A DNA stretch of 64,000 nt from Defluviitalea saccharophila (GCF_038396635.1 NZ_CP121687.1:124001-188000); one strand, 5' to 3'; numbered from the stretch's first letter, positions 7,403 to 40,806 are shown. Notes: generated by a model not told the origin, from the letters alone. Numbers and translations: made by a program.

Positions 7403-8650
7403 ATGGGAGAGTTGCAGCAAAAGGGAGCGTTAGCAAAAAAGGCATCCGTAATACTTGCTAAAAAGTCTTCAGAAGAAAAAAATAAGGGGCTTATTAAAGC
7501 TGCTGACTTTTTATTACAATATAAAGAAGAAATCATAAAAGCTAATGAAATTGACTTACAGTTCGCAAAAGAAAATGGCATTAAGGGTTCATTAATAGAT
7601 CGACTCACCTTAAATGAAAAAAGAATTGAAGCTATGGCAGAAGGGCTTAGAGAAATTGCTATGCTGGAGGATCCAGTAGGAGAAGTATTGTCTATGAAAA
7701 AACGTCCTAACGGTTTAGTGATTGGACAAAAGAGAGTACCTATGGGCGTTATAGGTATTATTTATGAGGCCAGACCGAATGTAACAGCAGATGCTTTTGG
7801 TCTATGTTTAAAAACAGGAAATGCGGTTATTTTAAGAGGCGGAAAAGAGGCCATACATTCTAATATCCAAATTGTTAAAATACTGCAAAATGCCTTAGAA
7901 ATAGTAGGGCTTCCTAAGGAAGCTGTACAACTGGTAGAGGACACCAGCAGAGAAACCGCTAAAGAAATGATGCGGTTAAATGAGTATTTAGATGTATTAA
8001 TTCCCAGGGGTGGTGCAGGACTAATTCAAACTGTTGTTCAAAACAGTACGGTACCGGTTATAGAAACTGGAGTAGGTAATTGTCATATCTATGTTGATGA
8101 TAAAGCGAAGATAGACGATGCAGTATCCATTACTGTCAATGCAAAGGTTCAGAGACCAGGTGTCTGCAATGCAGCCGAAAGCTTACTGGTTCATAAGGAT
8201 GTTGCAGAAATCTTTTTACCTAAAGTGTATGATGAACTGAAAAGATATAATGTAGAAATTAGAGGAGACGAAAAGGTACGAGGAATCCTTCCAGATGTTA
8301 ATGCTGCAACAGAAGAGGATTGGGGAAGAGAATACCTGGACTACGTTATAGCTGTTAAAGTGGTAGATTCTATCGATGAAGCCATTGAGCATATCAGTAA
8401 GTATGGTACAAAACATTCGGAAGCTATTATTACAGAAGATTATTCAAATGCTCAGCGTTTCTTGGAAGAAATTGATGCAGCAGCAGTGTATGTGAATGCA
8501 TCCACCCGTTTTACAGACGGTTTTGAATTCGGCTTTGGAGCTGAAATTGGAATTAGTACACAAAAGCTTCATGCCAGAGGGCCTATGGGCTTAAAGGAAC
8601 TCACTACAACAAAATATATTATTTACGGAAACGGACAGATCCGTCAGTAA
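7403..8650 (+). CDS. proA: Glutamate-5-semialdehyde dehydrogenase (gamma-glutamyl phosphate reductase)
   Basis: 415 residues, full length. It reduces glutamyl-5-phosphate to glutamate semialdehyde with NADPH, the second step of proline synthesis. Aldehyde-dehydrogenase-fold motifs include [25 protein letters not shown], the catalytic-Cys segment [10 protein letters not shown] and the C-terminal [19 protein letters not shown] 7403 follows GAGGTGATGG. It is monocistronic, closed by a terminator at 8666. Confidence 0.97.
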
Positions 8651-8665
8651 CTAAGAAATTTATTT

Positions 8666-8702
8666 AACCGCTGGTTTAGATTATTTATATCAGCGGTTTT
8701 TG
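8666..8702 (+). terminator. Terminator after proA
   Basis: AACCGCTG / CAGCGGTT stem with a 17-base loop, followed by TTTT. Confidence 0.75.
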
Positions 8703-8783
8703 CATGTCTTCTTATGGGGAATTTAAGGGAAATTTAAATCTTCCATAATGCAGGGGAGAAATCTGCTTGATGGCTGTTGAACC

Positions 8784-8812
8784 TTGTTATTTTTTTATGG
8801 TTACAGTATAAT
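8784..8812 (+). promoter_or_regulatory. SigA-type promoter of ruvAB
   Basis: TTGTTA, 17-base spacer, TATAAT. The expected start of transcription is about 8819, immediately before the LexA-like box. Confidence 0.75.
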
Positions 8813-8822
8813 GAATGAATAA

Positions 8823-8836
8823 AGAACGAATGTTCT
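8823..8836 (+). promoter_or_regulatory. LexA (SOS) operator upstream of ruvAB
   Basis: AGAACGAATGTTCT matches 12 of 14 positions of the Gram-positive SOS consensus CGAACRNRYGTTYG, including the whole GAAC-RNRY-GTTY core. It lies 11 bases after the -10 hexamer, where a repressor would block initiation or escape. ruvAB is a classic SOS operon. Confidence 0.75.
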
Positions 8837-8888
8837 TCTAAATTTAGACAGGCTTTCATAGAATATTTGCCCAGAAAGGATGAACGGC

Positions 8889-9488
8889 TTGATTTCGTTT
8901 GTTAAAGGGATTTTAGAATATATGACTGAGGAGTGGATTATAGTAGATGTGAATGGTATAGGGTATAAAATAGGCATACCTTCCTCTGCTGTGAGTAAAC
9001 TCCCTTCTATTGGAAAGGAAGTTAAGATATTTACCCATCTTCAAGTGAAAGAGGATGAAATGGCTTTATACGGGTTTCTATCCCAAGACGAGCTTAATAT
9101 GTTTGAACGATTGATATCGGTAAGCGGCATTGGACCTAAAGGAGCCCTTGGTATATTATCAACCTTATCTCCTGCTGATTTATGTATGGCTGTGATCACA
9201 GAAGATATAAAAACCTTAAGCAGTGCCCCGGGAATCGGGAAGAAAACTGCCCAAAGAATGATTTTGGAATTAAAAGATAAAATTAACACATTAGAAGCCA
9301 TAGGAATGGGTGGAGAACCGGTTTTAGAATTACAGCAAAACGGTACGGCTGAAGAAGCGATCGTTGCATTGGCTGCTTTGGGATATAGCAGGGTGGAAGC
9401 AGCAAAAGCTGTTAACGATGTTTTTAAAGAAGATATGTCTGTTGAAGACATTATTAAAGCAGCCCTTAAAAAGTTGGCATTATTTTAG
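8889..9488 (+). CDS. ruvA: Holliday junction branch migration protein RuvA
   Basis: 199 residues. The RuvA tetramer binds four-way junctions and loads RuvB. TTG 8889 gives the canonical opening MISFVKGIL and is well spaced from AAAGGA; the ATG at 8880 overlaps that site. Visible features are the OB-fold N-terminus, two helix-hairpin-helix motifs (ISVSGIGPKGALGIL and SSAPGIGKKTAQRMI) and the C-terminal RuvB-interacting helical domain. No ruvC precedes it, in keeping with Firmicutes that use RecU (59485). Confidence 0.96.
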   Translation: MISFVKGILEYMTEEWIIVDVNGIGYKIGIPSSAVSKLPSIGKEVKIFTHLQVKEDEMALYGFLSQDELNMFERLISVSGIGPKGALGILSTLSPADLCMAVITEDIKTLSSAPGIGKKTAQRMILELKDKINTLEAIGMGGEPVLELQQNGTAEEAIVALAALGYSRVEAAKAVNDVFKEDMSVEDIIKAALKKLALF

Positions 9489-9506
9489 ATGAAATGGGTG
9501 AAGACA

Positions 9507-10508
9507 ATGAAAGAACGTATCATAACTGCTGAATTAAGAAATGAAGATTTGGAAATAGAAGCAAGTATACGCCCTAAAACACTAGAGGATTATATTGGAC
9601 AAAAAAAGGCAAAAGAAAACTTAAAAGTGTTTATTCAAGCAGCCAAAAATAGAAAAGAAGCCTTAGATCATGTACTGCTCTATGGCCCTCCAGGCTTAGG
9701 AAAAACAACTTTGGCAAATATTATTGCCAATGAAATGCAGGTGAATATAAAAGTAACCTCGGGACCTGCTATTGAAAAACCTGGGGATATGGCAGCAATA
9801 CTCAATAATCTAAATGAAGGGGATCTTTTATTCATAGATGAAGTCCATCGCTTAAACCGTCATGTGGAAGAGATTTTATATCCAGCTATGGAAGACTTTA
9901 CAATTGATATCGTTATTGGGAAAGGTCCCGGTGCCAGGTCCATACGCCTGGATCTTCCTAAGTTTACGCTCATTGGTGCAACAACCAGGGCAGGATTATT
10001 AACGGCTCCCTTAAGGGACAGATTTGGTGTGATTCAACGGCTGGAATATTATAAAACCGATGAGCTTACGAAAATTGTAACCCGCTCAGCGCAGGTTTTA
10101 GGAATAAAAATAAATACTGCCGGAGCAGAAGAAATTGCGAGAAGATCAAGAGGAACCCCGAGAATTGCCAATAGGCTTTTAAAAAGAGTAAGAGATTTTG
10201 CGGAAGTAAAGTTTGAAGGATATATAGATGAAGAAGTGGCTTCGGCTGCTTTGGAATCCTTAGAAATAGATCAAATGGGACTGGATAGAATTGATAGGAA
10301 AATGCTCCTTGCAATGATTGAAAAATTTGGAGGAGGGCCGGTAGGAATAGATACTCTGGCAGCTGCCATAGGGGAAGAAAATGATACCATTGAAGATGTT
10401 TACGAACCTTTTTTAATTCAACTTGGATTTATTAACAGAACGCCCAGAGGCAGAGTTGTTACTGCTTTAGGCTATAAACATTTTGGGATCGAACAGCTTC
10501 ACTTTTGA
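9507..10508 (+). CDS. ruvB: Holliday junction branch migration ATPase RuvB
   Basis: 333 residues. It is the AAA+ motor that drives branch migration with RuvA. Walker [10 protein letters not shown], Walker [10 protein letters not shown], sensor 1 GATTRAG, arginine-finger region [11 protein letters not shown] and a C-terminal winged helix ([16 protein letters not shown]) are all present. ATG 9507 is preferred to ATG 9489 because GGGTGAAG lies between them. It is 18 bases from the ruvA stop and co-transcribed with ruvA under the same SOS-type promoter. Confidence 0.97.
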
Positions 10509-10521
10509 AAATGAATTTAGA

Positions 10522-10569
10522 TTGACAAAAATGATAAATATGCTACAATTATAATAGAGTAAAACTCTA
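10522..10569 (+). promoter_or_regulatory. Promoter with overlapping perfect palindrome upstream of DUF1836 gene
   Basis: TTGACA at 10522 with TACAAT at 10544 (16-base spacer). The 15-base perfect inverted repeat TAGAGT-AAA-ACTCTA at 10555-10569 begins just after the -10 region and is a candidate operator, possibly for the downstream regulator itself. Confidence 0.55.
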
Positions 10570-10638
10570 CTCAATGTAGATGATGTATACAGACTTAAGA
10601 ATAAAGGATTTCGGCAATTTAGGAGGAAGGAGATTTGT

Positions 10639-11232
10639 ATGGGAGAGAAAATAAATTTTACCACGCAGGAACTACTGGATTTAGCTAAGACAGTATCTGA
10701 TGAATGTCAGTTTATAGAGCTTAACACGTTTAATGATGAGATGACTATTTCGCAGGTAGTTCGTTTTTTTAATAAACAAGGCAAAAATTTCACAAAAACA
10801 ATGATTCAGAATTATGTAAGAGTAGGAGTGTTGCCTCCTCCCCTTGATCGAAGATACTATACAAAAAATCATTTGATCCTCCTTTCATTGATTGACAACT
10901 TGAAAGCCATATATTCACTGGATGAAATAAAGCTTGTGCTTGCTCCTATATTAAAGAATCCTGAAACCTTTGACGATGATATCATTAAGGTATCTAATTT
11001 ATATGAAGATTATATTTTATTGCATAAAAATGCTTTAAGAAATTGGGAAAATTATCTTCCCAAAACCCTTGAAGAAGTGAACCAATTATTACAAAAGGAT
11101 CGCGTTTCGAATGAGGAAAAGGATGTTGTTTCTGCTTTTATGCTTGTCTTGACATTAATGGCTGAAACAATAGCAATCAAAAAACTAATCCATTTAATAT
11201 CAGAGAAGTATTTAACCAACGTAGAAGAATAA
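10639..11232 (+). CDS. DUF1836 putative helix-turn-helix regulator
   Basis: 197 residues. The motif MTISQVVRFFNKQGKNFTKTMIQNYVRVGVLPPP with a following KNHLILLSLIDNLK is the DUF1836 signature, which resembles the DNA-binding half of MerR-type regulators. The C-terminal half is helical and may be a sensor or dimer domain; no ligand is evident. ATG 10639 follows AGGAGGAAGGAG. A palindrome in its own promoter suggests autoregulation (inference). Confidence 0.82.
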   Translation: MGEKINFTTQELLDLAKTVSDECQFIELNTFNDEMTISQVVRFFNKQGKNFTKTMIQNYVRVGVLPPPLDRRYYTKNHLILLSLIDNLKAIYSLDEIKLVLAPILKNPETFDDDIIKVSNLYEDYILLHKNALRNWENYLPKTLEEVNQLLQKDRVSNEEKDVVSAFMLVLTLMAETIAIKKLIHLISEKYLTNVEE

Positions 11233-11239
11233 ATAGTTG

Positions 11240-11267
11240 TTGTTTAATTATTACAATATGATATAAT
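11240..11267 (+). promoter_or_regulatory. SigA-type promoter for zapA
   Basis: TTGTTT, 16-base spacer, TATAAT, 37 bases before the zapA ATG. Confidence 0.6.
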
Positions 11268-11304
11268 AAAGCTAATACTCTTTAATGAACTAAGGGGCGG
11301 TCAT

Positions 11305-11757
11305 ATGGGAGAAAAAAATAAAATTGAAGTCATTATTGGTGGAAGAGTCTATACATTAGTTGGAGAAGAAAGTCAAGAATATATCCAAAGAGTTGCTTTA
11401 TATATTGACAGAAAAATGAGTGAAGTGCGAAAGGCTGACTCTTCTAGAAAATTAAGTACCAGTATGATTGCCATTTTGACTTCAATAAATGTGGCCGATG
11501 ATTTGTTTAAGATGAAAGAAGCATTAAAGGATGCTGCTGCTGAAATTGAATCCTTACAGAAGCAGCTGGATGAAAAGGACAAGCAAATAGAAGTTTATCA
11601 AAATGAATTGGGCAATATGCAGCAGGAAAACCTTGCTTTAAAGGATAAAATAGATGAAATTCAACTGGAAATTATGCGAAGCAAAATGGAGTTAGAGGAA
11701 TATATTAATATATTCGATGCAAATTTAAAGAATAAGAGTCTTTCAGACGATCATTAA
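11305..11757 (+). CDS. zapA: Cell division protein ZapA with extended coiled coil
   Basis: 150 residues. The N-terminal 80 residues are ZapA (IEVIIGGRVYTLVGEESQEYI, then RKLSTSMIAILTSINVADDLFK), which cross-links FtsZ filaments at the division site. The C-terminal 70 residues form a long Glu/Lys/Gln-rich coiled coil (LKDAAAEIESLQKQLDEKDK onward), making it longer than the 85-110 residues of typical ZapA, as often in Clostridia. ATG 11305 follows AAGGGGCGG. It precedes the U32 / FtsW / PBP run. Confidence 0.9.
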   Translation: MGEKNKIEVIIGGRVYTLVGEESQEYIQRVALYIDRKMSEVRKADSSRKLSTSMIAILTSINVADDLFKMKEALKDAAAEIESLQKQLDEKDKQIEVYQNELGNMQQENLALKDKIDEIQLEIMRSKMELEEYINIFDANLKNKSLSDDH

Positions 11758-11860
11758 ATGAATGATGAAGTAAATAGGATTGAATTTAGAGGGGAGTAAT
11801 AGTATGTTTATTACATCCCCTTTTCTATATTCCGATTATTATTTAGAAAGGATACACTAT

Positions 11861-14263
11861 ATGAATAAAAAAAATATCGAGCTTCTTGCTCCTGTTGGCA
11901 ACAAAGAAAGCCTGTTTGCTGCTGTAAACAACGGCTGTGATGCAGTATATTTAGGAGGAAAAGCATTTAGTGCAAGACAATATGCAGGAAATTTCTCCTT
12001 AGAGGAAATGGAAGAAGTTCTTGATTATTGCCATCTAAGGAATGTAAAAGTATATGTAACAGTGAATACCTTGTATAAACAGGAAGAATTGGGAAATCTA
12101 TTTGAGTTTTTAAATCAATTATATATTTTAGGGGTAGATGCTTTTATTGTTCAGGATCTGGGTACGGCTGTAAAGATTAGAAAGCTCTTTCCTGATATTG
12201 AACTTCACGGGAGCACCCAAATGACCATCCATGATTTAAACGGAGTTAAATTTTTAGAGGAGCTAGGGTTCGATAGAGTTGTTTTAAGCAGAGAAATGTC
12301 CCTTGAAGAAATTTCTTATATTACAAAAAACACAAATATGGCAATAGAAGTATTTGTCCATGGTGCACTGTGTTTTAGTTATTCCGGTCAGTGTTTGATG
12401 AGCAGTATGATTGGAGGAAGAAGCGGAAATAGAGGTCGATGTGCACAACCCTGCAGGCTGCCCTATCACTTGGTGGATAAAGATAATAAGAAAGTTGCTT
12501 CCGGATATCTTTTAAGTCCTAAGGACATACAGACTCTGGAATATATTCCTCAATTGATAGAGAGTGGCGTAACTTCATTTAAAATAGAAGGCAGAATGAA
12601 GAGGCCGGAATATATCGCTTCAGTGGTGAGCACTTACAGAAAATACATTGATCAATACCTTTCTGAACAAAAGGACTATTCTGTAGATCCTCGCGATATC
12701 AAGAATCTTGCTCAAGTTTTCAATAGAGGAGGCTTTTCAAAGGGATATCTGTATCAGCATGGCGGCAGAGATATGATGAGTTTTGAAAGTCCTAAACACT
12801 GGGGGATCTATGCAGGAAAAGTGGTTCAATATAATCCTTCAACAAAGAAATGTGTTATTGATACAATAGAACCTTTAGAGCCTGGAGATGGTATAGAGAT
12901 ATGGAGAAAAGGAAAGGAAAACACAGGAGTTGCCATTTCTAAATCAAGTAAGGCAGGCGAGCAAATTACTATTTTTATAAAAGATCCTGTTCAAAAGGGA
13001 GATTTGGTATATAAAACGAAGGATAAACCTCTTCTTGACGGGCTTCAAAAAACTTATGAGAAAGATGTACGAAAGAGTTCAATATTTGGACATATTAAAT
13101 TTAAGAAACATATGCCGATTATTCTTCAGCTTTGGGATAATCAAGGTAATTTTATTGAAGCAGAAGGAGAATTAGTTGAAGAAGCACAAAATCAGGCATT
13201 AACAGAAGAAAGATTGCAATTACAGATATCCAAAACAGGAAATACTCCTTTTAATATAGAATCCTTAACAGTAGAGATGGATGAAGACGGGTATTTGCCT
13301 ATAGGAGAATTAAATGCCCTTAGAAGAAAAGGGATAGAAGAATTAGAAAAATGCATTATAAAAAATACTAGACGAAGTTCTGTCAATATTAGAACTGTCG
13401 AGGAGTCTTTTGAAGAGGCAGAGGAAGCTCCAAAGGGAGTAAAAGATAAAAGTCTTTCAATACTAATAAGAGACATTCATCAGCTTGAGGCTGCTTTCCA
13501 TCCAAAAGTTAAAAGAATTTATTTTGAATTCAATTCAAATCCAATCGAAGAGATAGAAAAGGCAGCTAAAGCTTGTTATGATAGAAATATAGAATTTTTT
13601 GTAGCATTACCGCGCATAGATGTGAATTACAAAAAGAAAAAAATATGGTACAATTTAGAAAATACATTAATAGACGGATATTTAATCAGAACCTATGGAC
13701 AAGCTTATACACTTAAGAATACTTGCAAAAAAAGAATCATGGATTACACTTTTAATATATTTAATCCACTAACCGCTCAATTTTGGATGAGATCCGATGT
13801 GGAAGGAGTTACTCTTTCTCCTGAATTAAACTACGAAGAATTGAAGGTTTTCAGGGGAGATGGGATAGAAGTTATTGGATATGGCTATTTGCCTTTAATG
13901 ACAACCCAGCAATGTATTATAGGCAATACCGTAGGCGATAAATTTCCTCAAGGCTTTTGTAAAAACAGGAACGATCATAAACCATACAAGCTCATTGATC
14001 GCAAGGGAGAAGAATTTCCTATTATTCAGGACTGTTCTTCCTGTATCGCTGTTATTTATAACGGTAAGCCTATTCTGCTTTTAAACGAATTTGATAAATT
14101 ATCATCGCTTCCCGTAGATTCTATAAGATTGGATTTTGTATTTGAATCAACAGAAGATATGAAAAAGATCATAGAAAGCTATGGGAATTGTAAAAAGGCA
14201 GCATTTCCGCAAATAAAAGGGCAAGAATATACGAAAGGACACTTTTTTAGGGGCGTAGAGTAG
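11861..14263 (+). CDS. Peptidase U32 family protein with C-terminal DUF3656 (RlhA-like)
   Basis: 800 residues from ATG 11861 (AGAAAGGA upstream). The N-terminal half is U32: IELLAPVGNKESLFAAVNNG, DAVYLGGKAFSARQ, and the Cys-rich FSYSGQCLMSSMIGGRSGNRG ... CAQPCRLPY. The middle has GFSKGYL and the 900-residue-class DUF3656 region follows. The best-studied relatives, E. coli RlhA (YdcP) and TrhP, hydroxylate 23S rRNA or tRNA rather than cleave peptides, so an RNA-modifying role is more likely than proteolysis. A second in-frame ATG at 11804 with a stronger site (GAGGGGAG) would add 19 residues. The gene lies 8 bases before the FtsW-like gene. Confidence 0.88.
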   Translation: MNKKNIELLAPVGNKESLFAAVNNGCDAVYLGGKAFSARQYAGNFSLEEMEEVLDYCHLRNVKVYVTVNTLYKQEELGNLFEFLNQLYILGVDAFIVQDLGTAVKIRKLFPDIELHGSTQMTIHDLNGVKFLEELGFDRVVLSREMSLEEISYITKNTNMAIEVFVHGALCFSYSGQCLMSSMIGGRSGNRGRCAQPCRLPYHLVDKDNKKVASGYLLSPKDIQTLEYIPQLIESGVTSFKIEGRMKRPEYIASVVSTYRKYIDQYLSEQKDYSVDPRDIKNLAQVFNRGGFSKGYLYQHGGRDMMSFESPKHWGIYAGKVVQYNPSTKKCVIDTIEPLEPGDGIEIWRKGKENTGVAISKSSKAGEQITIFIKDPVQKGDLVYKTKDKPLLDGLQKTYEKDVRKSSIFGHIKFKKHMPIILQLWDNQGNFIEAEGELVEEAQNQALTEERLQLQISKTGNTPFNIESLTVEMDEDGYLPIGELNALRRKGIEELEKCIIKNTRRSSVNIRTVEESFEEAEEAPKGVKDKSLSILIRDIHQLEAAFHPKVKRIYFEFNSNPIEEIEKAAKACYDRNIEFFVALPRIDVNYKKKKIWYNLENTLIDGYLIRTYGQAYTLKNTCKKRIMDYTFNIFNPLTAQFWMRSDVEGVTLSPELNYEELKVFRGDGIEVIGYGYLPLMTTQQCIIGNTVGDKFPQGFCKNRNDHKPYKLIDRKGEEFPIIQDCSSCIAVIYNGKPILLLNEFDKLSSLPVDSIRLDFVFESTEDMKKIIESYGNCKKAAFPQIKGQEYTKGHFFRGVE

Positions 14264-14271
14264 GTGAAAAT

Positions 14272-15624
14272 ATGCTAAAAGAATCAATTGTTGAAATTTG
14301 TATATTGATTTCTAGGTATGTATTTCTATTCATTATTTTCATGTTTGTGTGGTCAGGATATAAGGCTGTTCTTTTTGAGCGAAGAAAAGATATTGAGGCA
14401 TATACGCATAAAGTTTTTATGCAGAGAGGATTTATTATACTGCTTCATATATTGGGCTTTATTATTTTAATGCTCAATTCTAAAGATATGGCAGAACTGC
14501 AGCAAATAGCGAAGCTTGGCAGTGTAGGCCTTATATTTATTGTAGGCTGTATGATATTGACTTTCCTTGTTTATAAGAAATCCGATCCAGTACTTTGGAA
14601 CTCTATGATTTTTTTAATGGATATCGGACTAATCATTTTACAAAGATTAGAACCGGAAACAGCACAGAGCCAAATTATCAGGTATATTTTGGGTATGATT
14701 GTCATGCTTTTTATCCCATTGATCTTTAAGATTATACCTAGATTTGAGAAATTTGAAATTGTATATTTGGTAAGCGGATGGGTTTTATTATTATCTCCAT
14801 TTTTATTTGGGAAAGAACAATTTGGAGCTAGAAACTGGATTAATATTGGAGGTTTTAGCTTTCAGCCTTCAGAAATTGTGAAATTTTTATTTATATTTTA
14901 CTTAGCCTGCTCCCTTAGGAAATATCATTCCATAAAAGATATTGTATTGCCATCGGTTATGAGCGGAGGATATATTCTTGTCCTTGTTCTCCAAAGAGAT
15001 TTAGGAGGGGCTTTAATCTATTTTCTTACGTTTTTAATACTGCTTTATCTTAGCACTTCCAGTTATTTATTTTTCTTTGGAGGCTTAGGCGGTGCGTCTG
15101 TTGCCTCTATGATTGCCTATAAATTATTCAGCCATGTTAGAGTTCGCGTAGAAGTATGGCTAAATCCTTGGAAGGAAATTGATACAAAAGGATATCAAAT
15201 CACTCAGTCCCTGTTTGGAATCGGAACATGGGGATGGATGGGCAGTGGATTAACCAGAGGATATTCTAAACATATACCGGTAGTAACAACTGATTTTATT
15301 TTTTCTGCGATCTGTGAAGAATTTGGAAATTTATTCGGAATAGGAATCATTCTGATATTTTTACTGATCGTACTCCGTGGAATTATGATTGCCCTTAGAT
15401 GCAATCGAGTGTTTTATTCCCTTCTTGCAGCTGGAGCAACCAATTTAATTGCCATCCAAACATTTTTAATTATTGGAGGGGTTATTAAATTCATACCTTT
15501 AACGGGTGTAACTCTACCTTTCATAAGTTATGGAGGAAGTTCAGTTGTTGCCAGTATTTTAATCATCGGAATTCTCCAATGGATACAGAGCTTTTATGAA
15601 ATGAAAGAAGAAGCGGAGGGATAA
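14272..15624 (+). CDS. FtsW/RodA/SpoVE (SEDS) family peptidoglycan glycosyltransferase
   Basis: 450 residues with about ten to twelve membrane helices. SEDS signatures are FGARNWINIGGFSFQPSEIVKF, VLVLQRDLGGALIYFL, the extracellular WLNPWKEIDTKGYQITQSLFGIGTWGWMGSGL and the C-terminal PLTGVTLPFISYGGSSVVAS. SEDS proteins polymerise lipid II with a partner class B PBP, and such a PBP follows one base downstream. The first ~120 residues carry extra hydrophobic segments compared with minimal family members. Whether the pair serves division, elongation or sporulation cannot be decided here. Confidence 0.93.
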   Translation: MLKESIVEICILISRYVFLFIIFMFVWSGYKAVLFERRKDIEAYTHKVFMQRGFIILLHILGFIILMLNSKDMAELQQIAKLGSVGLIFIVGCMILTFLVYKKSDPVLWNSMIFLMDIGLIILQRLEPETAQSQIIRYILGMIVMLFIPLIFKIIPRFEKFEIVYLVSGWVLLLSPFLFGKEQFGARNWINIGGFSFQPSEIVKFLFIFYLACSLRKYHSIKDIVLPSVMSGGYILVLVLQRDLGGALIYFLTFLILLYLSTSSYLFFFGGLGGASVASMIAYKLFSHVRVRVEVWLNPWKEIDTKGYQITQSLFGIGTWGWMGSGLTRGYSKHIPVVTTDFIFSAICEEFGNLFGIGIILIFLLIVLRGIMIALRCNRVFYSLLAAGATNLIAIQTFLIIGGVIKFIPLTGVTLPFISYGGSSVVASILIIGILQWIQSFYEMKEEAEG

Positions 15625-15625
15625 T

Positions 15626-17023
15626 TTGAATCAATTAAGAAAAGATATAAAAAAGATATTTTGGCTATATGCAGCTATGTTTTTGTCTCTTATTATATAT
15701 TTGATTAAATTTTTAGTGTTCGACAGTCCATCTGTGATTATCAACGCTTATAATCCTAGATTAGGTGCCTTGGAAAAAAATATCGTAAGAGGTGAAATAA
15801 GAGACAGTAAGGGTATAGTATTGGCAAGAACGAAGAAAAATGGAGACACATGGATTAGAGAATATCCAAAAGGAAGAGATTTTGCTCATGTCGTAGGTTT
15901 TGTTCAGAAAGGAAAAACTGGAATAGAGGCATATAGTAATTTTAAACTATTAGAAGTAAGCAATAAAATGATGCAGACTGTTGATCGGATGTTTTCCGGG
16001 GATAATTTTCAGGGGAATCATGTTATATTAACGATGGATGCCGAGCTTCAACATACGGCCAGGGAGCTCCTTAACGGAAGAAAAGGTGCAATTGTTGTCA
16101 TGGAGCCCTCCACAGGTAAGATTCTTGCCATGGTCTCTTATCCTGATTTTGACCCTAATCAATTGAATCAGAATTGGGAACAATTAAATAAAGACGAAGA
16201 AAATAGTCCGCTGATCAATAGAGCAGCTCAAGGACTTTATCCACCAGGCTCAATATTTAAAATGATTACAAGTGCAGCCGTTTTGGAAAAGAATGAGGAT
16301 TGGAAGGACTTTCATTATAATTGTACAGGGGAAGAAATTTTCGACGAAAATTTAATTCGCTGTTTTAATTCCAAAGCCCATGGAGAGGTTGATTTAGAAA
16401 GTGCTTTTTATCTTTCATGCAATACGGGCTTTGCCACTTTAGGAATTGATGTTGGAGGAGAACAGTTAGGGAGAATATCCGAAAGACTCCTTTTTAACCG
16501 AAATTTACCCTATGAGTTGGAATACTCAAAAAGTCAATTCCGCATTACAAAGGATTCAAAAGACAGAGAAATCGTTGAAACAGCTATTGGTCAAGGAAAA
16601 ACCTTAGTTTCTCCTTTGCATATGGCAATGATCACTTCTGCAATTGCCAATGGTGGAATTTTAATGCAGCCGTATATTATTGACCATGTGGAAACAAACT
16701 ATGGAAGTATAAAGGATAAAAAAATACCTCAAAGCTATGGCATATTGTTTGAACCAGAAATCGCCAGTCAACTTTCAAAGATGATGACAGATGTAGTTAA
16801 TAAAGGAACAGGTACTCAGGCGAAAATATCCAATGTTTCAGTGAGCGGTAAGACAGGGACTGCGCAAAACGCTTCAGGAAAAGATCATGCATGGTTTGTT
16901 GGTTTTGCTCCTACGGAGAAGCCAAAAGCCGTTGTAGCAGTAATCATCGAAAATGGAGGATCAGGAGGTCAGGTGGCAGGACCGATTGCCCGTCAACTGT
17001 TTCAAAAAGTCTTAAATCAATAA
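15626..17023 (+). CDS. Class B penicillin-binding protein (PbpA-like transpeptidase)
   Basis: 465 residues from TTG 15626 (GCGGAGGG upstream), one base after the SEDS gene stop. One N-terminal membrane helix (residues 12-32) precedes a short pedestal (RGEIRDSKGIVLA) and the transpeptidase domain. Active-site motifs are all present: SIFK (Ser209, Lys212), SCN (264-266) and KTG (409-411). It cross-links peptidoglycan outside the membrane and is the expected partner of the SEDS protein. It is shorter than FtsI/PBP2 (about 600-700) and resembles the actinobacterial RodA-PbpA arrangement. Confidence 0.94.
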   Translation: MNQLRKDIKKIFWLYAAMFLSLIIYLIKFLVFDSPSVIINAYNPRLGALEKNIVRGEIRDSKGIVLARTKKNGDTWIREYPKGRDFAHVVGFVQKGKTGIEAYSNFKLLEVSNKMMQTVDRMFSGDNFQGNHVILTMDAELQHTARELLNGRKGAIVVMEPSTGKILAMVSYPDFDPNQLNQNWEQLNKDEENSPLINRAAQGLYPPGSIFKMITSAAVLEKNEDWKDFHYNCTGEEIFDENLIRCFNSKAHGEVDLESAFYLSCNTGFATLGIDVGGEQLGRISERLLFNRNLPYELEYSKSQFRITKDSKDREIVETAIGQGKTLVSPLHMAMITSAIANGGILMQPYIIDHVETNYGSIKDKKIPQSYGILFEPEIASQLSKMMTDVVNKGTGTQAKISNVSVSGKTGTAQNASGKDHAWFVGFAPTEKPKAVVAVIIENGGSGGQVAGPIARQLFQKVLNQ

Positions 17024-17039
17024 AGGCAGGTGCTTCAGT

Positions 17040-17723
17040 GTGGCAGCTTTGTTACAAGTGGCTTTGGCTCCCGTTTTCATTGCTTCTACATATATTTATA
17101 TAAGAGACAAGTATGAGAAGGAGCCTATTAGACTTTTGTTTTTGGGACTGCTTTTTGGATTGATTATAGCCGCTCCAATTATGGGCGTTGAGATGTTTTT
17201 ATCAACATTTACCCCTACTGAGGCAGTGTTTAAAGAGGCACTATATACAGCTTTTATTGTTGCTGCCGGTACTGAGGAATTTTTTAAATTTATCGTTTTA
17301 TATTTCTTAGTATGGAGAAATAGAAATTTTAACGAGCCTATTGACGGAATAGTATATTCGACTTTTATTTCCTTAGGATTTTCAGGGATTGAAAATATTT
17401 TATATGTATTTAACCCTTTATTAGGAGGATACCAAACAGGTTTGGCCAGAGCTGTTTTTTCGGTCCCCGGCCATGCATTATTTGGCGTAACGATGGGATA
17501 CTATTATGCAATAGCAAAATTTGAATCAAGTGAGAGGAAAACGATGCTTATAAAAAGCTATTTAATACCATGGTTTCTTCATGGCATATATGACTTTATT
17601 CTTCTTGCGAAAATTCCAATGCTTATGCTCTTATTTGTTCCATTTGTTCTATATTTATGGGTACAAGGAATGAGAAAGATCAAAGTCCATGTACAAAGCT
17701 CACCTTTCAAGCCACAGGAATAG
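17040..17723 (+). CDS. prsW: PrsW-type intramembrane protease
   Basis: 227 residues, about seven membrane helices, from GTG 17040. Conserved PrsW elements are the N-terminal YIYIRDKYEKEP, the catalytic pair GTEEFFK (Glu79-Glu80), the GIENILYV helix, PGHALFGVTMGYYY and HGIYDFIL. In B. subtilis PrsW makes the first cut in the anti-sigma factor RsiW. Here an ECF sigma and ZAS-type anti-sigma lie 1 kb downstream, a plausible substrate pair (inference from proximity). It closes the SEDS/PBP operon. Confidence 0.9.
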   Translation: MAALLQVALAPVFIASTYIYIRDKYEKEPIRLLFLGLLFGLIIAAPIMGVEMFLSTFTPTEAVFKEALYTAFIVAAGTEEFFKFIVLYFLVWRNRNFNEPIDGIVYSTFISLGFSGIENILYVFNPLLGGYQTGLARAVFSVPGHALFGVTMGYYYAIAKFESSERKTMLIKSYLIPWFLHGIYDFILLAKIPMLMLLFVPFVLYLWVQGMRKIKVHVQSSPFKPQE

Positions 17724-17725
17724 GT

Positions 17726-17754
17726 AAGAAGATGCGAAAGTATCTTCTTTTTTT
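17726..17754 (+). terminator. Terminator after prsW
   Basis: AAGAAGAT-GC-GAAA-GT-ATCTTCTT with a GAAA tetraloop, followed by seven T. Confidence 0.85.
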
Positions 17755-17773
17755 ACAATTCGAATACTGCAGG

Positions 17774-17802
17774 TTGAAAAATCTAGAAAAAAGATGTATA
17801 CT
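17774..17802 (+). promoter_or_regulatory. SigA-type promoter for Nudix gene
   Basis: TTGAAA, 17-base spacer, TATACT. Confidence 0.65.
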
Positions 17803-17881
17803 CATTTCATATTTGTACATAAAATGACATGTACTCTCTTTTCTTGCGTAAAATTTGAACATTGTGTCAGGAGGAATAGGA

Positions 17882-18349
17882 ATGATAGAAGCCATAAGCT
17901 GTGGAGGTGTTGTGATTCATAGAGGTAAAATTCTATTATTGTATAAAAATTATAAACATAAATATGTCGGTTGGGTTCTTCCAAAAGGAACGGTAGAACC
18001 GGGCGAGATGCATCGAGATACGGCATTAAGAGAAGTTGAAGAGGAGTCTTCTGTTTCTGCAAAAATCGTAAAATACATTGGACATAGTCAATATACATTT
18101 CAGGGAAGAGATGATATTGTTAACAAGACAGTTCATTGGTATTTAATGAGAGCGAATAGTTTTTACTGCAAACCGCAAAGAGAAGAACATTTTGTAGATG
18201 CAGGATACTATAAATTTCATGAAGCATATCATCTGTTAAAATTCAATGATGAGCGACAAATCATGAAAAAAGCCTATTATGCCTATATAGAGCTTAGAAA
18301 AAATAAACAATGGATTAAACCCTCTAAAGCAAAAAATGATTTATATTAA
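17882..18349 (+). CDS. Nudix hydrolase
   Basis: 155 residues from ATG 17882 (AGGAGGAAT upstream; in-frame ATG 17855 lacks a site). The Nudix box is GTVEPGEMHRDTALREVEEE at about residues 38-57, with Ser replacing the usual Gly after the EE pair. The N-terminal SCGGVVIHRGKILLLY and GWVLPKG are typical of the diadenosine-polyphosphate / 8-oxo-dGTP group. Substrate cannot be assigned. It is monocistronic between its own promoter and terminator. Confidence 0.92.
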   Translation: MIEAISCGGVVIHRGKILLLYKNYKHKYVGWVLPKGTVEPGEMHRDTALREVEEESSVSAKIVKYIGHSQYTFQGRDDIVNKTVHWYLMRANSFYCKPQREEHFVDAGYYKFHEAYHLLKFNDERQIMKKAYYAYIELRKNKQWIKPSKAKNDLY

Positions 18350-31530: not shown

Positions 31531-31561
31531 AAAAATCTAGAAGATGATTTGTATTTTTTTG

Positions 31562-31593
31562 TCTAGATGAACAAAAATCATCTAGATTTTTTT
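31562..31593 (+). terminator. Terminator after glgA, with an upstream third repeat
   Basis: TCTAGATGA / TCATCTAGA stem, seven-base loop, then seven T. A third TCTAGA at 31536-31541, preceded by five A, can alternatively pair with the last one, giving a longer competing hairpin from 31530. Confidence 0.85.
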
Positions 31594-31691
31594 GTTACTT
31601 GTGATATCATAGTAGATATACTATTATTTATAATTATACAGATATTAGTTATACCACATCCAAATTTAGTATCAATAGAGGAGTGGAAGCA

Positions 31692-33743
31692 TTGAGTTTA
31701 GACTGTCACTTTAAAGAAGAGGAACTAGTTTTTGGACTAGATATCGGTACACGAACGATCATGGGCATATTAGGCTTTCAAAAGGGTAAAGACTTTATTG
31801 TCATTGCTGCAGAGCAGATAGAACATGAATCCAGGGCAATGATGGATGGCCAGATTCATGATATATTTAAAGTAGCACAAACAGTCCAGAAGGTGAAAAC
31901 AGCTTTAGAAAAACGGGTCGGAATTCAATTAAAGGATGTAGCCATTGCCGCTGCGGGTAGAGTATTAAAAACATACTTGGTCAGAATCGATCAAAGCCTG
32001 GATGAAGTAAAAGAAATTCAAAAAGACCTCATTAGAGAATTAGAACTTAAAGGAATAGATGAAGCACAGGCAAAACTGAAAGAAGAATTAGGAGATACAA
32101 ATATAGACTATTTTTGTGTAGGTTATTCTGTGGTAAACTATTACTTAAACGAATATATTATTACTAATTTAGAAGGACATAAAGGGAAAAAAATTGGTGC
32201 AGACGTACTGGCTACGTTTTTGCCTCGCAGTGTTGTAGAGAGTTTATATGCTGTAATGGATAAAGTAGGATTAAATGTCGTTAGTCTTACCTTAGAACCT
32301 ATAGCAGCAATTAATGTAGCAATTCCTGAAAATCTGAGACTTCTAAACTTGGCACTGGTGGATGTAGGAGCAGGAACTTCCGATATTGCTATTACAAAAG
32401 AGGGAGCAGTGATTGGGTATGGCATGATACCCATTGCTGGGGATGAAATAACAGAAAGAATTGTACATAAATATTTAGTTGATTTTCAAACTGCTGAAAA
32501 GATAAAATATCAAATAAATAAACAAGAAAAAATTTCATTTTTAGACATATTGGGTATACCCCATACGGTTACTTCTCAAGAATTATTAGAACACTTAGAA
32601 GATGCTGTAAATTACTTAGCAGATCAAATAACTGCTAAAATTTACGAGTTGAATGGAAATAAAGCTCCAAATGCTGTTTTTTGCGTTGGAGGCGGAAGTC
32701 AGGTTAAAGGTTTAACAGAAAAAATTTCTGAAAGACTTAAACTTCCGAAGGAAAGAGTTGCCCTTCGAGGAGGAGATACATTAATCAATGTTAAATATGA
32801 ATGTGAACCTTTAGTGGCTCCTGATGTCATTACTCCAATAGGAATTTGTGTTACTTCTATTCTTCAAAGAGGTTATGACTTTATTGAAGTAAAAGTTAAT
32901 GGAGACCCTGTAAAACTTTTAAACACAAAAAGATTAACCGTTGCTGATGCAGGGATACAAAAGGGCTTCAATCATACAAATTTATTAGGAAGAAAAGGCT
33001 CTTCCCTCATCTTTAAATTAAATCAACAAAGCAAAAAGATTTGGGGAGAACCAGCGATTCCTGCAGAGCTTTATGTCAATGGGAAAGAAGCTAGCCTTGA
33101 TACGCCTATTCATGCTGGAGACGATATTACTATCAAACCTGCAATCAACGGAAAACCTGCTAGGGCTTATATAAAAGACTTTCTTGATGAAAAGAAAGTT
33201 AAAAAAATTATTATTAATGATATTGAAATGGAACTTTCTGTTCTATGTATGTCAAATGGGACTATAGTTGATCAGGATACTCCTATACATAATAATGACG
33301 AAATTGAATTTTTTGAAATTCAGACCATTGAAGATTTAGCTCGATATGCAGATATTGAGATCAACGGTAAAGAGTTTTTTGTCAATGGTGAAAAAGTTGA
33401 TTTAAATTATTCAATACAAAATGGAGACAAAGTATATTTCAAACCAATAAAAGAGGATCAGGAAATTATAGTAAATGAAGAGAATAAAGATCAATTATCC
33501 GTGCATTTTCAGGATATTCCTGTTATAGTAACAGTTAATAGCAATAAAGTAACACTAAAAGGTAAAAAGTCAGATTATATCTTTGTAGATATTTTTAATT
33601 TTATTGATTTTGATTTAAAAAATCCTCAAGGAAATATTGTTCTAAAATTAAATGGAAAAAGAGCAGCATTTACTGATATAATAAAGCAAGGAGATCAGAT
33701 TGAAATCTACTGGGATAAATTTAATAAGGCGGATGATATATGA
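31692..33743 (+). CDS. FtsA/PilM-like actin-fold ATPase with long repeated C-terminal region
   Basis: 683 residues from TTG 31692; GTG 31683 lies inside the ribosome site GAGGAG. Residues 1-395 are FtsA-like: VFGLDIGTRTIMGIL (phosphate 1), an SHS2-like insert, LALVDVGAGTSDIAITKEG (phosphate 2) and VFCVGGGSQVKGLTE (adenosine motif). Residues 400-683 hold at least four similar beta-rich modules built on VNG/LNG ... TPI..GD.I, for example near 461 (YVNGKEASLDTPIHAGDDI), 556 (INGKEFFVNGEKVDL) and 653 (LKLNGKRAAFTDIIKQGDQI). No amphipathic FtsA-type C-terminal helix is seen. The stop overlaps the start of the cyclase gene (ATGA). Possibly a membrane or envelope scaffold; exact role unknown. Confidence 0.8.
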   Translation: MSLDCHFKEEELVFGLDIGTRTIMGILGFQKGKDFIVIAAEQIEHESRAMMDGQIHDIFKVAQTVQKVKTALEKRVGIQLKDVAIAAAGRVLKTYLVRIDQSLDEVKEIQKDLIRELELKGIDEAQAKLKEELGDTNIDYFCVGYSVVNYYLNEYIITNLEGHKGKKIGADVLATFLPRSVVESLYAVMDKVGLNVVSLTLEPIAAINVAIPENLRLLNLALVDVGAGTSDIAITKEGAVIGYGMIPIAGDEITERIVHKYLVDFQTAEKIKYQINKQEKISFLDILGIPHTVTSQELLEHLEDAVNYLADQITAKIYELNGNKAPNAVFCVGGGSQVKGLTEKISERLKLPKERVALRGGDTLINVKYECEPLVAPDVITPIGICVTSILQRGYDFIEVKVNGDPVKLLNTKRLTVADAGIQKGFNHTNLLGRKGSSLIFKLNQQSKKIWGEPAIPAELYVNGKEASLDTPIHAGDDITIKPAINGKPARAYIKDFLDEKKVKKIIINDIEMELSVLCMSNGTIVDQDTPIHNNDEIEFFEIQTIEDLARYADIEINGKEFFVNGEKVDLNYSIQNGDKVYFKPIKEDQEIIVNEENKDQLSVHFQDIPVIVTVNSNKVTLKGKKSDYIFVDIFNFIDFDLKNPQGNIVLKLNGKRAAFTDIIKQGDQIEIYWDKFNKADDI

Positions 33744-35401
33744 GCAGATTGGAATTTTTAGAAAAAAGATATACCTATATCCATATTGGATTTTTGATAT
33801 TGATGCTGATTCATTTAGAATTTAATCAATGGATTGGAAAATCAAGCGATATATCTTTGAATAAATTTCTCCTTGCAGCAGCATTAGCCGTTATGGGCAT
33901 TAAATTTCTTGTTATAAAAAAAGGATTGCTTCAAAAGTATCACCTATATATTTGTTTTAAAATCATGGAATTATTATACGTGGGTGGCCTCATCTATCAG
34001 GATCAAGTTGTTCTAGTATTTGAACCCTTAGTTTATTTATTGATTTTAATTGAAATTTTTTCTGTAAGTGCGAACTTAAATTCTTTATTTTATTACTTTA
34101 TTCCATTGATTGTATCCAGTGTAATGATGCTGGGAAAAGATTTTTTCCTGCTTAGTAATCTCGTTAATACAATATTTCTTATTTTATCCAACGCTTTATT
34201 TATTTATATTGTGAATTCTACGATCCATGAAATAGAAAAGAATTCAGATAAGCATAAAGAACTCCTTATACAAGCACAGAAGAAAAACGAAGAATTACTA
34301 AAAATTAAGGAACATATGGAATTAGTTAATAAAGAATTGGAACAACAAAAAGAAGAAATGAGAAAAACCAGTGAAAGTTTTAGAAATAATGTGGCAGAAC
34401 TGTTTATTCTCAAGGAAACCAGTTCTTACATTGGGTCAATTCTTGAAATTCAACAGCTACTGGAACTGGTTTGTGATATGATTATGGGTATTTTGGGCGT
34501 GGATACTTGTTCAATTATTGTTTATGATGAAAAATATGAAACCCTTGATTTTCATATCAAAAGTATTTACAGTCATGAAGTTATAGAAAATTTTAAAGTG
34601 AACTTATCTAACAGTTCTTTGCAAAAAAGAATCAAAGATAAAGAAATTTTAATCAATAACAATTGCAGAGATAAAAAGTATTCTTTTTTAGAGGGCAGAG
34701 ATGTTGGCTCCTTTGTTGCAGTTCCCTTGTACAAAGGAAATAAGTCCTATGGACTGATTTTAGCAGAACATACTTTAGAAAATTATTTTTCCACAAGTAA
34801 TACGGATCTATTTAAAGCAGTATCTATGCAGGTAGCTGTAGCCATTGAAAATGCAAAGTTGTATGAGCAAATGGAAGAGATGGCTGAAAGAGATGGTCTT
34901 ACAAATGTGTACAATAGAATGTATTTACAAAAAATCATGCCCAAATTGATAGAGAGTGCAAAAATACATAATCAATCTATTTCTATCGGTATATTCGATA
35001 TTGATCATTTTAAAGTTTTTAATGATACTTACGGACATCTTTTTGGGGATGAAGTGCTTAAGGCAATTGCTCATTTAGCGCAGAAAAAGGTGGATGCATA
35101 CCATGGAATTGTCGCTAGATATGGTGGAGAAGAATTTGTTATGATTTTTCCAAATGTCACTTTGAGCGAAGCCGCAGTTATTATAGAGGATCTGCGAAAA
35201 GAAATTGAACATTTTACTTTAACCAAAGAAGATGTAAGTGCCAAAATTACAGCGAGTTTTGGAGTGAGCGGTTTTCCGGAAGTAGTAGATAATGTAGAAA
35301 GTCTTCTTAGAACTGCCGACGATGCTATGTATATGTCTAAACGTCAGGGAAGAAATCGTGTAACGGTAGCATCTGTTAATGGAAATAATGCTATGGATTA
35401 A
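33740..35401 (+). CDS. Membrane-bound GAF-GGDEF diguanylate cyclase
   Basis: 553 residues. About five membrane helices (residues 14-160) are followed by a coiled coil (165-225), a GAF sensor domain (about 235-370) and a GGDEF domain (385-545) with an intact GGEEF (462-466) and the metal-binding DIDHFK. It should make c-di-GMP. The RxxD inhibition site upstream of RYGGEEF is missing (AYHG), so product inhibition is not expected. It overlaps the FtsA-like gene by 4 bases, implying coupled expression. The GAF ligand is unknown. Confidence 0.92.
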   Translation: MSRLEFLEKRYTYIHIGFLILMLIHLEFNQWIGKSSDISLNKFLLAAALAVMGIKFLVIKKGLLQKYHLYICFKIMELLYVGGLIYQDQVVLVFEPLVYLLILIEIFSVSANLNSLFYYFIPLIVSSVMMLGKDFFLLSNLVNTIFLILSNALFIYIVNSTIHEIEKNSDKHKELLIQAQKKNEELLKIKEHMELVNKELEQQKEEMRKTSESFRNNVAELFILKETSSYIGSILEIQQLLELVCDMIMGILGVDTCSIIVYDEKYETLDFHIKSIYSHEVIENFKVNLSNSSLQKRIKDKEILINNNCRDKKYSFLEGRDVGSFVAVPLYKGNKSYGLILAEHTLENYFSTSNTDLFKAVSMQVAVAIENAKLYEQMEEMAERDGLTNVYNRMYLQKIMPKLIESAKIHNQSISIGIFDIDHFKVFNDTYGHLFGDEVLKAIAHLAQKKVDAYHGIVARYGGEEFVMIFPNVTLSEAAVIIEDLRKEIEHFTLTKEDVSAKITASFGVSGFPEVVDNVESLLRTADDAMYMSKRQGRNRVTVASVNGNNAMD

Positions 35402-36973: not shown

Positions 36974-37369
36974 ATGTCATCAAACAGACGCCGTTCTCAC
37001 ATTCACTTTGTAAAACAGTATCGAAGAAAAACTTTAGAATATACAGGCACCAGGATCGTCATATTCATTAAAGAAAAGGGTATTAAGTATATAAAGGATT
37101 TTGATAATTTTTACATACATAGATATCATAGACCTAAAAATAAGAGACATTCCATTTCTATGTGGAAGATTATGCCCTGCGACATTGTTGAAGTGGTTAA
37201 AAAGATGATGACTAATGAGAGTATTTGTGGAGAGTATAAGATGATCCATACTTTATATGAATCCACTAAAAGAAATATAGAAGATTTTCTAGAAGAGGTA
37301 CTTATAGAAGAAGATATTATACTTTTAAGAGAGCAGGTAGAAAAAATAATAGAAAAGATTAAAAAATAA
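36974..37369 (+). CDS. Basic 131-residue protein, family not recognised
   Basis: 131 residues, soluble, with a very basic N-terminal half (SSNRRRSHIHFVKQYRRKTL, then HRYHRPKNKRH) and a helical, charged C-terminal half. No signal peptide, membrane segment or Cys motif. ATG 36974 is 6 bases after the thpR stop with only a weak site (GGAATGAAG), suggesting it is the last gene of dprA-thpR. The basic character would suit nucleic-acid binding, but that is a guess. Confidence 0.7.
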   Translation: MSSNRRRSHIHFVKQYRRKTLEYTGTRIVIFIKEKGIKYIKDFDNFYIHRYHRPKNKRHSISMWKIMPCDIVEVVKKMMTNESICGEYKMIHTLYESTKRNIEDFLEEVLIEEDIILLREQVEKIIEKIKK

Positions 37370-39110: not shown

Positions 39111-39151
39111 AATATGTTAAACTGATTTTGAAATAGAATGGGGGTATGGAA

Positions 39152-39421
39152 ATGAGAGGTATCATTACCGTTGTAGGAAAAGACCGTGTTGGCATCATTG
39201 CAAAGGTTTGCACATTGCTTTCAGAAAGGCAAATTAATATTTTGGATATATCCCAAACGATTGTTCAAGGTTTTTTTAACATGATGATGATTGTGGATTT
39301 ATCGAATTCCACAGAGAACTTTGAGAAGAATGAAGAGGATTTGAAAAATTTAGGAAATGAAATAGGAGTTGTTATTAAACTTCAAAGAGAAGAAATTTTT
39401 AACAGCATGCATCGAATTTAA
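39152..39421 (+). CDS. ACT domain protein (UPF0237, GcvR-like)
   Basis: 89 residues from ATG 39152 (ATGGGGGT upstream; ATG 39146 is too close). The whole protein is one ACT repeat: MRGIITVVGKDRVGIIAKV, QINILDISQTIVQGFFNMMM. ACT domains bind amino acids. Members are almost always adjacent to UPF0210 genes, as here (26 bases). It lies just after the glycine-controlled symporter, but cotranscription is not certain. Confidence 0.92.
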   Translation: MRGIITVVGKDRVGIIAKVCTLLSERQINILDISQTIVQGFFNMMMIVDLSNSTENFEKNEEDLKNLGNEIGVVIKLQREEIFNSMHRI

Positions 39422-39447
39422 TTCCTTAATTCAAAGGAGGAAAAGCA

Positions 39448-40806
39448 GTGATTACACGCTTGGAAGTACAAGAAACAAATAAAATGATTGAAGAAGCCAA
39501 GCTGGATGTACGAACTATTACGCTTGGAATTAGCTTACAGGATTGTGCCGATAGTGATATTAATCGTTTTAATCAAAAGATATACGATAAAATTACAAAA
39601 ACTGCGGAGAACTTGGTAAAGACAGGAGAAGAAATAGAAAAAGAATTTGGAATTCCCATTGTGAATAAAAGAATTTCCGTTACACCGATTTCTATAGCAG
39701 CAGCAGGATGTCAAACAGACTCCTATGTATCCGTTGCCCATGCCTTGGATCGGGCGGCAAAACAAGTGGGAGTGAATTTTATAGGTGGTTTTTCTGCTTT
39801 GGTTCAAAAAGGATCAAATCCCTCCGATGAGATTCTTATGAACTCAATTCCACAGGCATTGGCTGAAACAGAAAGAGTTTGTTCTTCGGTGAATCTGGCC
39901 ACTACACGATCAGGAATTAATATGGATGCTGTTAAAAATATGGGAAGAATCATAAAACAGACAGCTCAAAATACCAAGGAAAAAGACTCTATAGGATGCG
40001 CAAAACTTGTTGTGTTTTGTAACGCACCGGAAGACAATCCTTTTATGGCAGGAGCTTTTCATGGAGTAGGAGAAAGAGATTGTGTTGTAAATGTAGGTGT
40101 CAGTGGACCTGGAGTTGTTAAAAAAGCTCTGGAGTCGGTTAAAGGAAAAGATTTTGAAACCCTTTGTGAAATGGTTAAAAAGACAGCTTTTAAAATTACA
40201 AGGGTAGGTCAATTGGTTGCCCAGGAGGCAGCTAAACGCCTGAATGTTCCCTTTGGTATCATTGATTTATCCCTTGCCCCAACTCCGGCTATTGGAGACA
40301 GTATTGCAGAAATACTGGAAGAAATGGGACTAGAGAATGCAGGGGCTCCGGGAACAACAGCTGCTTTGGCACTGTTAAATGACAATGTAAAAAAGGGTGG
40401 GGTAATGGCTTCATCCTATGTTGGTGGTCTTAGTGGTGCATTTATTCCTGTCAGCGAGGATCAGGGGATGATTCGAGCGGTAGAAGCAGGAGCATTAACC
40501 TTGGAGAAATTAGAAGCTATGACTTGCGTATGCTCAGTTGGTCTTGACATGATTGCAATTCCTGGGGATACTTCTGAAGAAACCATTTCAGGAATTATTG
40601 CAGATGAAATGGCTATAGGAATGATCAATGGCAAAACGACAGCGGTTCGTATTATTCCGGTAATCGGTAAAGGAGTCGGAGATATCGTTGAATTTGGAGG
40701 ACTTCTAGGCTATGCACCTATTATGCCGGTAAACAATTTTAGCTGCAAAGATTTTATTCATCGAGGAGGACGTATTCCTGCACCGATTCATAGTTTTAAA
40801 AATTAA
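39448..40806 (+). CDS. UPF0210 (DUF711) protein
   Basis: 452 residues from GTG 39448 (AAAGGAGG upstream). The family is recognised by [51 protein letters not shown] and the C-terminal [14 protein letters not shown]. Structures in this family resemble the fold of glycyl-radical enzymes, but no glycyl-radical motif is present; function unknown. The pair with the ACT protein suggests amino-acid-controlled activity. Confidence 0.92.

Follow-up and report, generated by a model that had tools for sequence, protein, structure and literature searches.

A 64,000-nucleotide stretch of the Defluviitalea saccharophila genome (GCF_038396635.1, NZ_CP121687.1:124001-188000), referred to here as the window, carries a pair of overlapping genes on the plus strand. 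The first product, which we call FtsAL, joins an FtsA-like actin-fold ATPase to three ubiquitin-like domains, and the second is predicted to synthesize cyclic di-GMP (c-di-GMP) at the membrane. FtsAL is akin to FtsA and PilM but forms a separate family that differs from divisome FtsA, and its occurrence across Clostridia follows that of flagella. Our leading, still tentative, proposal is that FtsAL may act in the flagellar motility of Clostridia as a scaffold or adaptor gated by ATP, with the cyclase as its partner in many lineages. Counted from the first nucleotide of the window, the two genes are:

31692-33743, plus strand: FtsAL, an actin-fold ATPase of FtsA-like type carrying three ubiquitin-like domains at its C-terminus, assigned from profiles and models.
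33740-35401, plus strand: predicted membrane GAF-GGDEF diguanylate cyclase of 553 amino acids, assigned from profiles and its active-site motif.

The suggestion of a motility role comes from the co-occurrence of FtsAL with flagellar genes. In a class-wide sample of 245 Clostridia genomes, the flagellar motor protein FliG is present in 58 of the 59 genomes that carry FtsAL and in 38 of the 186 that do not, and the sole FtsAL-positive genome lacking FliG is 80% complete. A Fisher test on these counts gives a p value of about 4e-29, a figure that ignores shared ancestry, with no species-tree correction applied. Grouped by family, with labels read from tables, FtsAL occurs in 16 of 32 FliG-positive families and in none of the 42 others; among Lachnospiraceae represented by one genome per genus (150 genera), FliG is found in 60 of 64 FtsAL-positive genomes, compared with 20 of 86 FtsAL-negative ones. 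For true FtsA, taken as a control, FliG is present in just 40 of 61 genomes. At one locus (L068, positions 8385-18000), only a chemoreceptor gene (methyl-accepting chemotaxis protein, MCP) on the opposite strand separates FtsAL from a flagellar cluster that includes fliG.

This link is strong without being absolute, and several observations weigh against a role in motility. Four Lachnospiraceae genomes, listed as 91-100% complete, carry FtsAL without FliG, and two of these four retain the cyclase (L181 and L182). FtsAL is absent from 38 of the 96 flagellate genomes of the class sample and is therefore not required for flagella. The genes that usually flank it are housekeeping genes (polA, coaE, and genes for ACT and UPF0210 proteins) rather than flagellar ones, and no sigma-28 promoter was seen upstream of FtsAL, where candidate sites show no excess over shuffled sequence. 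FtsAL and flagella could also be lost jointly in small-genome lineages, the co-occurrence being uncorrected for ancestry.

The FliG matches in Lachnospiraceae split into two groups by score. FtsAL is missing from most genomes of the weaker group, as would be seen if another flagellar lineage did without it. Outside Clostridia, a full FtsAL is found in Bacillus sp. M6-12 (L148, positions 7989-10157). A link to sporulation was considered and rejected, the sporulation marker SpoIVA showing no clear association with FtsAL (p 0.07).

The N-terminal part of FtsAL comprises the following features, with residues numbered here and below from a GTG codon at 31683 that opens the 686-codon frame:

31716-32870, plus strand: actin-like ATPase domain of FtsA topology, including subdomain 1C (residues 12-396; Z 37 over 367 residues aligned with FtsA 7q6g).
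31737-31754, plus strand: phosphate-1 motif LDIGTR (residues 19-24).
32361-32384, plus strand: phosphate-2 motif DVGAGTSD (residues 227-234, from D227 to D234).
32688-32696, plus strand: adenosine-site GGG (residues 336-338).

An earlier note, made from the sequence alone, had described an FtsA-like ATPase with an intact actin-type nucleotide site. Both points hold: none of the three intact motifs varies among 66 homologs, and structure prediction returns an FtsA-type N-terminal fold. Residues 18-356 match the Pfam FtsA, MreB, and PilM domains, and the best Protein Data Bank (PDB) matches to the FtsAL family profile are FtsA sequences (E 5e-21). An AlphaFold model of the full protein, built from 66 homologs with a mean predicted local distance difference test (pLDDT) score of 88, aligns most closely with FtsA (Z 37, 367 residues), followed by PilM (Z 33) and MreB (Z 24). 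No transmembrane segment was recognized in FtsAL outside the ATPase fold, the sole hydrophobic stretch (residues 376-394) being a helix of the ATPase itself.

FtsAL shares with FtsA its fold, subdomain 1C, and the ATP-site motifs, at 16-22% identity over about 365 residues, but several lines of evidence set it apart. It reaches 96.5 bits against the FtsA model TIGR01174, below the cut-off of 175.85, and 67.7 bits against the PilM model TIGR01175, below the cut-off of 133; the EutJ model gives 61 bits. In a small-sample tree with long branches, whose deeper joins are unsure, 15 FtsAL sequences form one clade apart from PilM and from 4 Clostridial FtsA sequences (support 86/90). Within the class sample, FtsAL occurs in 59 genomes and true FtsA (E 1e-40) in 61, with both present in 24. 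Whereas FtsA has a C-terminal amphipathic membrane helix, the ATPase of FtsAL runs directly into its three-domain tail, which is predicted to end in a beta strand and a short disordered stretch. In 40 loci whose neighbors were scanned for the FtsZ signature GGGTGTG, FtsAL has no adjacent ftsZ; in C. beijerinckii, ftsA does adjoin ftsZ (PMC6362236), and that gene presumably encodes a true FtsA.

These comparisons bear on the alternative that FtsAL, as an FtsA paralog, has an accessory scaffold role in division or in the envelope, its tail binding FtsZ or wall-synthesis proteins, especially in lineages devoid of FtsA, with the flagellar link reflecting no more than a shared lifestyle. The FtsA fold and ATP site would suit this role, as would the transglycosylase gene (SLT) found upstream in the window's neighborhood and in close relatives, and FtsA above the model cut-off was detected neither in the window's genome nor in any of 57 sampled relatives from its order. 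However, 27 of these 57 FtsA-less relatives also lack FtsAL, which is therefore no general substitute for FtsA; the likely division tether in such relatives is SepF, seen in the window's genome only. True FtsA also coexists with FtsAL in 24 of the 59 FtsAL genomes, and both an adjoining ftsZ and an FtsA-like C-terminal tail are missing. We consider a division scaffold unlikely and have rejected the simpler idea that FtsAL replaces FtsA. Apart from the question of FtsAL, cell division in the window's order (57 genomes) seems to do without canonical FtsA and presumably uses SepF.

With PilM, FtsAL has in common an actin fold with subdomain 1C and a cytoplasmic character, and PilM is its next nearest fold (Z 32.8). 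As the pilus motor PilT is present in 55 of the 59 FtsAL genomes, FtsAL could in principle act like PilM, as part of a cytoplasmic ring in type IV pili or in a related envelope machine. Its distribution nevertheless tracks flagella rather than pili: FtsAL occurs in none of the 37 genomes that have PilT but not FliG, compared with 3 of the 11 that have FliG but not PilT. The association with PilT thus appears only together with flagella, and a link to type IV pili was rejected. In addition to the failure to reach the PilM cut-off, no pilus gene neighbors such as pilN or pilO were recognized, and the window's genome encodes two separate PilM-like proteins, so we regard this role as improbable.

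The tail that distinguishes FtsAL from both relatives contains:

32874-33149, plus strand: ubiquitin-like domain 1, TGS-like (residues 398-489; Z 8.7 to TGS 3hvz and SpoT 7qpr).
33189-33461, plus strand: ubiquitin-like domain 2, ThiS/MoaD-like with an inserted hairpin (residues 503-593; Z 8.7 to ThiS 1zud; Pfam ThiS, TGS, and Ub-Mut7C above cut-off).
33462-33515, plus strand: low-confidence linker (residues 594-611).
33516-33725, plus strand: ubiquitin-like domain 3, with a conserved end and the invariant W677 and without a terminal Gly-Gly (residues 612-681; Z about 7).

Folded alone, the C-terminal 291 residues give a globular AlphaFold model (pLDDT 91) in which VIA-align and Foldseek comparisons identify three ubiquitin-like beta-grasp domains of TGS/ThiS type. 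The earlier note had rightly separated this region, some 290 globular residues of related beta modules, from the membrane tail of FtsA. Its count of at least four VNG/LNG...GD.I modules needs revision: four hairpin motifs (GDDITI, NDEIEF, GDKVYF, and GDQIEI) are indeed present, but they lie in three domains, one of them in the hairpin inserted in domain 2. Residues 396-488 have a constant length of 93 amino acids in 66 of 66 homologs, and the linker before domain 3 ranges from 4 to 159 residues. Among 65 tails searched with Pfam (E 0.01), 43 match ThiS, 39 TGS, and 33 Ub-Mut7C.

The models and profile matches therefore assign the tail to the ubiquitin-like beta-grasp superfamily, a fold with many functions. 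All three domains have this fold in common with ThiS/MoaD and TGS domains, and Pfam matches exceed the cut-off for several family members. Unlike in ThiS and MoaD, however, the C-terminal Gly-Gly is missing, being carried by none of 150 homologs. Sulfur-carrier or ubiquitin-conjugation activity was rejected on this basis, there being no sign of either. FtsAL also differs in bearing its domains in tandem on an actin-type ATPase, a pairing that we did not find in the literature searched. Tandem ubiquitin-like domains do occur in bacterial multi-ubiquitin-domain proteins (9cd2 and 9d5b), but these chains contain no ATPase, and their match to FtsAL is one of fold only, the domain arrangement being different (root-mean-square deviation of 15 or more).

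In Lachnospiraceae, the gene preceding FtsAL is usually coaE, and in ten loci CoaE is fused in frame to the FtsAL N-terminus (L064, L115, L128, L131, L134, L139, L178, L179, L180, and L184, of which L139 and L184 possibly represent one genome).

The tail fold and this gene order could together reflect a metabolic or chaperone-type actin-fold ATPase, such as an EutJ-like reactivase, acting in CoA or cofactor chemistry. In favor of such an enzyme are the 61-bit score with the EutJ model, the ThiS/MoaD-like fold, and the polA-coaE-FtsAL order, with CoaE upstream in most Lachnospiraceae and fused in some. The missing Gly-Gly end argues against a sulfur carrier, though, and subdomain 1C and the overall structural match indicate FtsA and PilM instead. 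The CoaE linkage is limited to certain lineages, 4 changes on the FtsAL tree are enough to account for the fusions, and the flagellar profile would be left unexplained. We judge a EutJ-like function very unlikely.

The second gene product has hydrophobic segments within residues 38-162, a GAF domain at 236-370, and a GGDEF domain at 383-540 (E 3.6e-40), in agreement with the earlier description of a membrane protein of GAF-GGDEF type whose GGEEF is intact. This motif lies at:

35123-35137, plus strand: GGEEF active-site motif, intact; AYHG occupies the place of the upstream I-site (RxxD) for product inhibition.

From its GGDEF domain and intact GGEEF, the protein is predicted to be a c-di-GMP synthase. 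The membrane N-terminus, GAF sensor, and catalytic site are those of membrane GAF-GGDEF diguanylate cyclases, from which it differs generally in lacking the I-site and in being paired with FtsAL.

A survey of gene neighborhoods found a GAF-GGDEF gene directly after FtsAL in 38 of 136 distinct loci, at gaps of -41 to 250 bases; homologs of FtsAL thus do stand beside such genes, in a non-random sample of close relatives and best matches whose 28% is not a population frequency. All paired genes are of the same GAF-GGDEF type. Other GGDEF proteins in these loci do not match that GAF domain, so the pairing is above chance. Lachnospiraceae and their relatives carry the pair in polA-coaE-FtsAL loci, and Ruminiclostridium-like families carry it in glgA-nth-FtsAL loci; it is hence retained in differing surroundings. 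The earlier claim of a coupling to c-di-GMP synthesis accordingly stands as a recurrent pairing but is too strong for the family at large, since most homologs have no adjacent cyclase.

This last point raises the possibility that the cyclase is a passenger, with the ATPase acting alone and the gene overlap reflecting operon economy. About 70% of homologous loci are without an adjacent cyclase, and cyclases are mobile and common. Against this, the same GAF-GGDEF type adjoins FtsAL in several families and in both flanking contexts, and the FtsAL tree shows the pairs in clusters, the cyclase label requiring 17 changes compared with 33 after shuffling. A passenger cyclase is doubtful but quite conceivable; most likely, the cyclase is a frequent but dispensable partner of FtsAL.

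For a role of FtsAL as a motility scaffold or adaptor, we envisage the following mechanism. FtsAL would be cytoplasmic and might, for example, place flagella, assemble them, or set their activity. Its ATPase core would bind ATP and then change state or self-associate, possibly into filaments, in the manner of FtsA and PilM. Partner proteins could dock on its three ubiquitin-like domains, of which the third is attached by a flexible linker. In many lineages, the co-transcribed membrane cyclase may set the c-di-GMP level near FtsAL or bring FtsAL to the membrane, and thereby switch motility and adhesion jointly. A more specific version would make FtsAL a cytoskeletal or adaptor protein devoted to motility in Clostridia. 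It would assemble with ATP and use its tail to recruit flagellar or chemosensory partners, with c-di-GMP from the co-transcribed cyclase as its switch; this version seems to us rather unlikely.

FtsAL is easily annotated as FtsA, yet it makes up an actin-like family apart, often shares a genome with true FtsA, and almost never occurs without flagella. Its parts are of known kinds, but their combination and flagella-linked distribution were not found in the literature searched: searches on the FtsAL family, on FtsA with ubiquitin-like or TGS domains, on an FtsA-like protein with a diguanylate cyclase, and on motility profiling returned nothing on FtsAL, and no FtsA-like fusion is mentioned in the parts seen of two reviews of the beta-grasp fold (PMC1949818 and PMC1779556). 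If the link to motility is true, then Clostridia would own an actin-family protein devoted to motility, possibly with a built-in c-di-GMP switch, and tandem ubiquitin-like domains would have a new use in bacteria.

Several further features concern expression of the gene pair:

31561-31587, plus strand: terminator-like hairpin (10-pair stem, TTTTTT tail) separating the upstream glgA from the FtsAL transcript.
31599-31627, plus strand: weak sigma-70-like promoter candidate, TTGTGA-17-TATTAT, of a kind no commoner in this region than expected by chance.
31677-31683, plus strand: Shine-Dalgarno sequence AGAGGAG, read from the sequence.

The open frame runs from GTG 31683 to 33743. We prefer a start at TTG 31692, giving 683 amino acids, because AGAGGAG sits 8 nt upstream of it. 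The overlap noted earlier between the FtsAL stop and the cyclase start is confirmed as the 4 bases ATGA at 33740-33743. The closest named record to FtsAL comes from 'Candidatus Epulonipiscium sp.' (L074), with 99% protein identity.

Farther downstream in the window, an open reading frame of 131 amino acids (36974-37369) follows an RNA 2',3'-cyclic phosphodiesterase gene; it has no Pfam match and is kept in close relatives (L042, L044, and L045). The genes for an ACT-domain protein and a UPF0210 (DUF711) protein at 39146-40806 remain together 3' of FtsAL in many relatives, often with PepD next.

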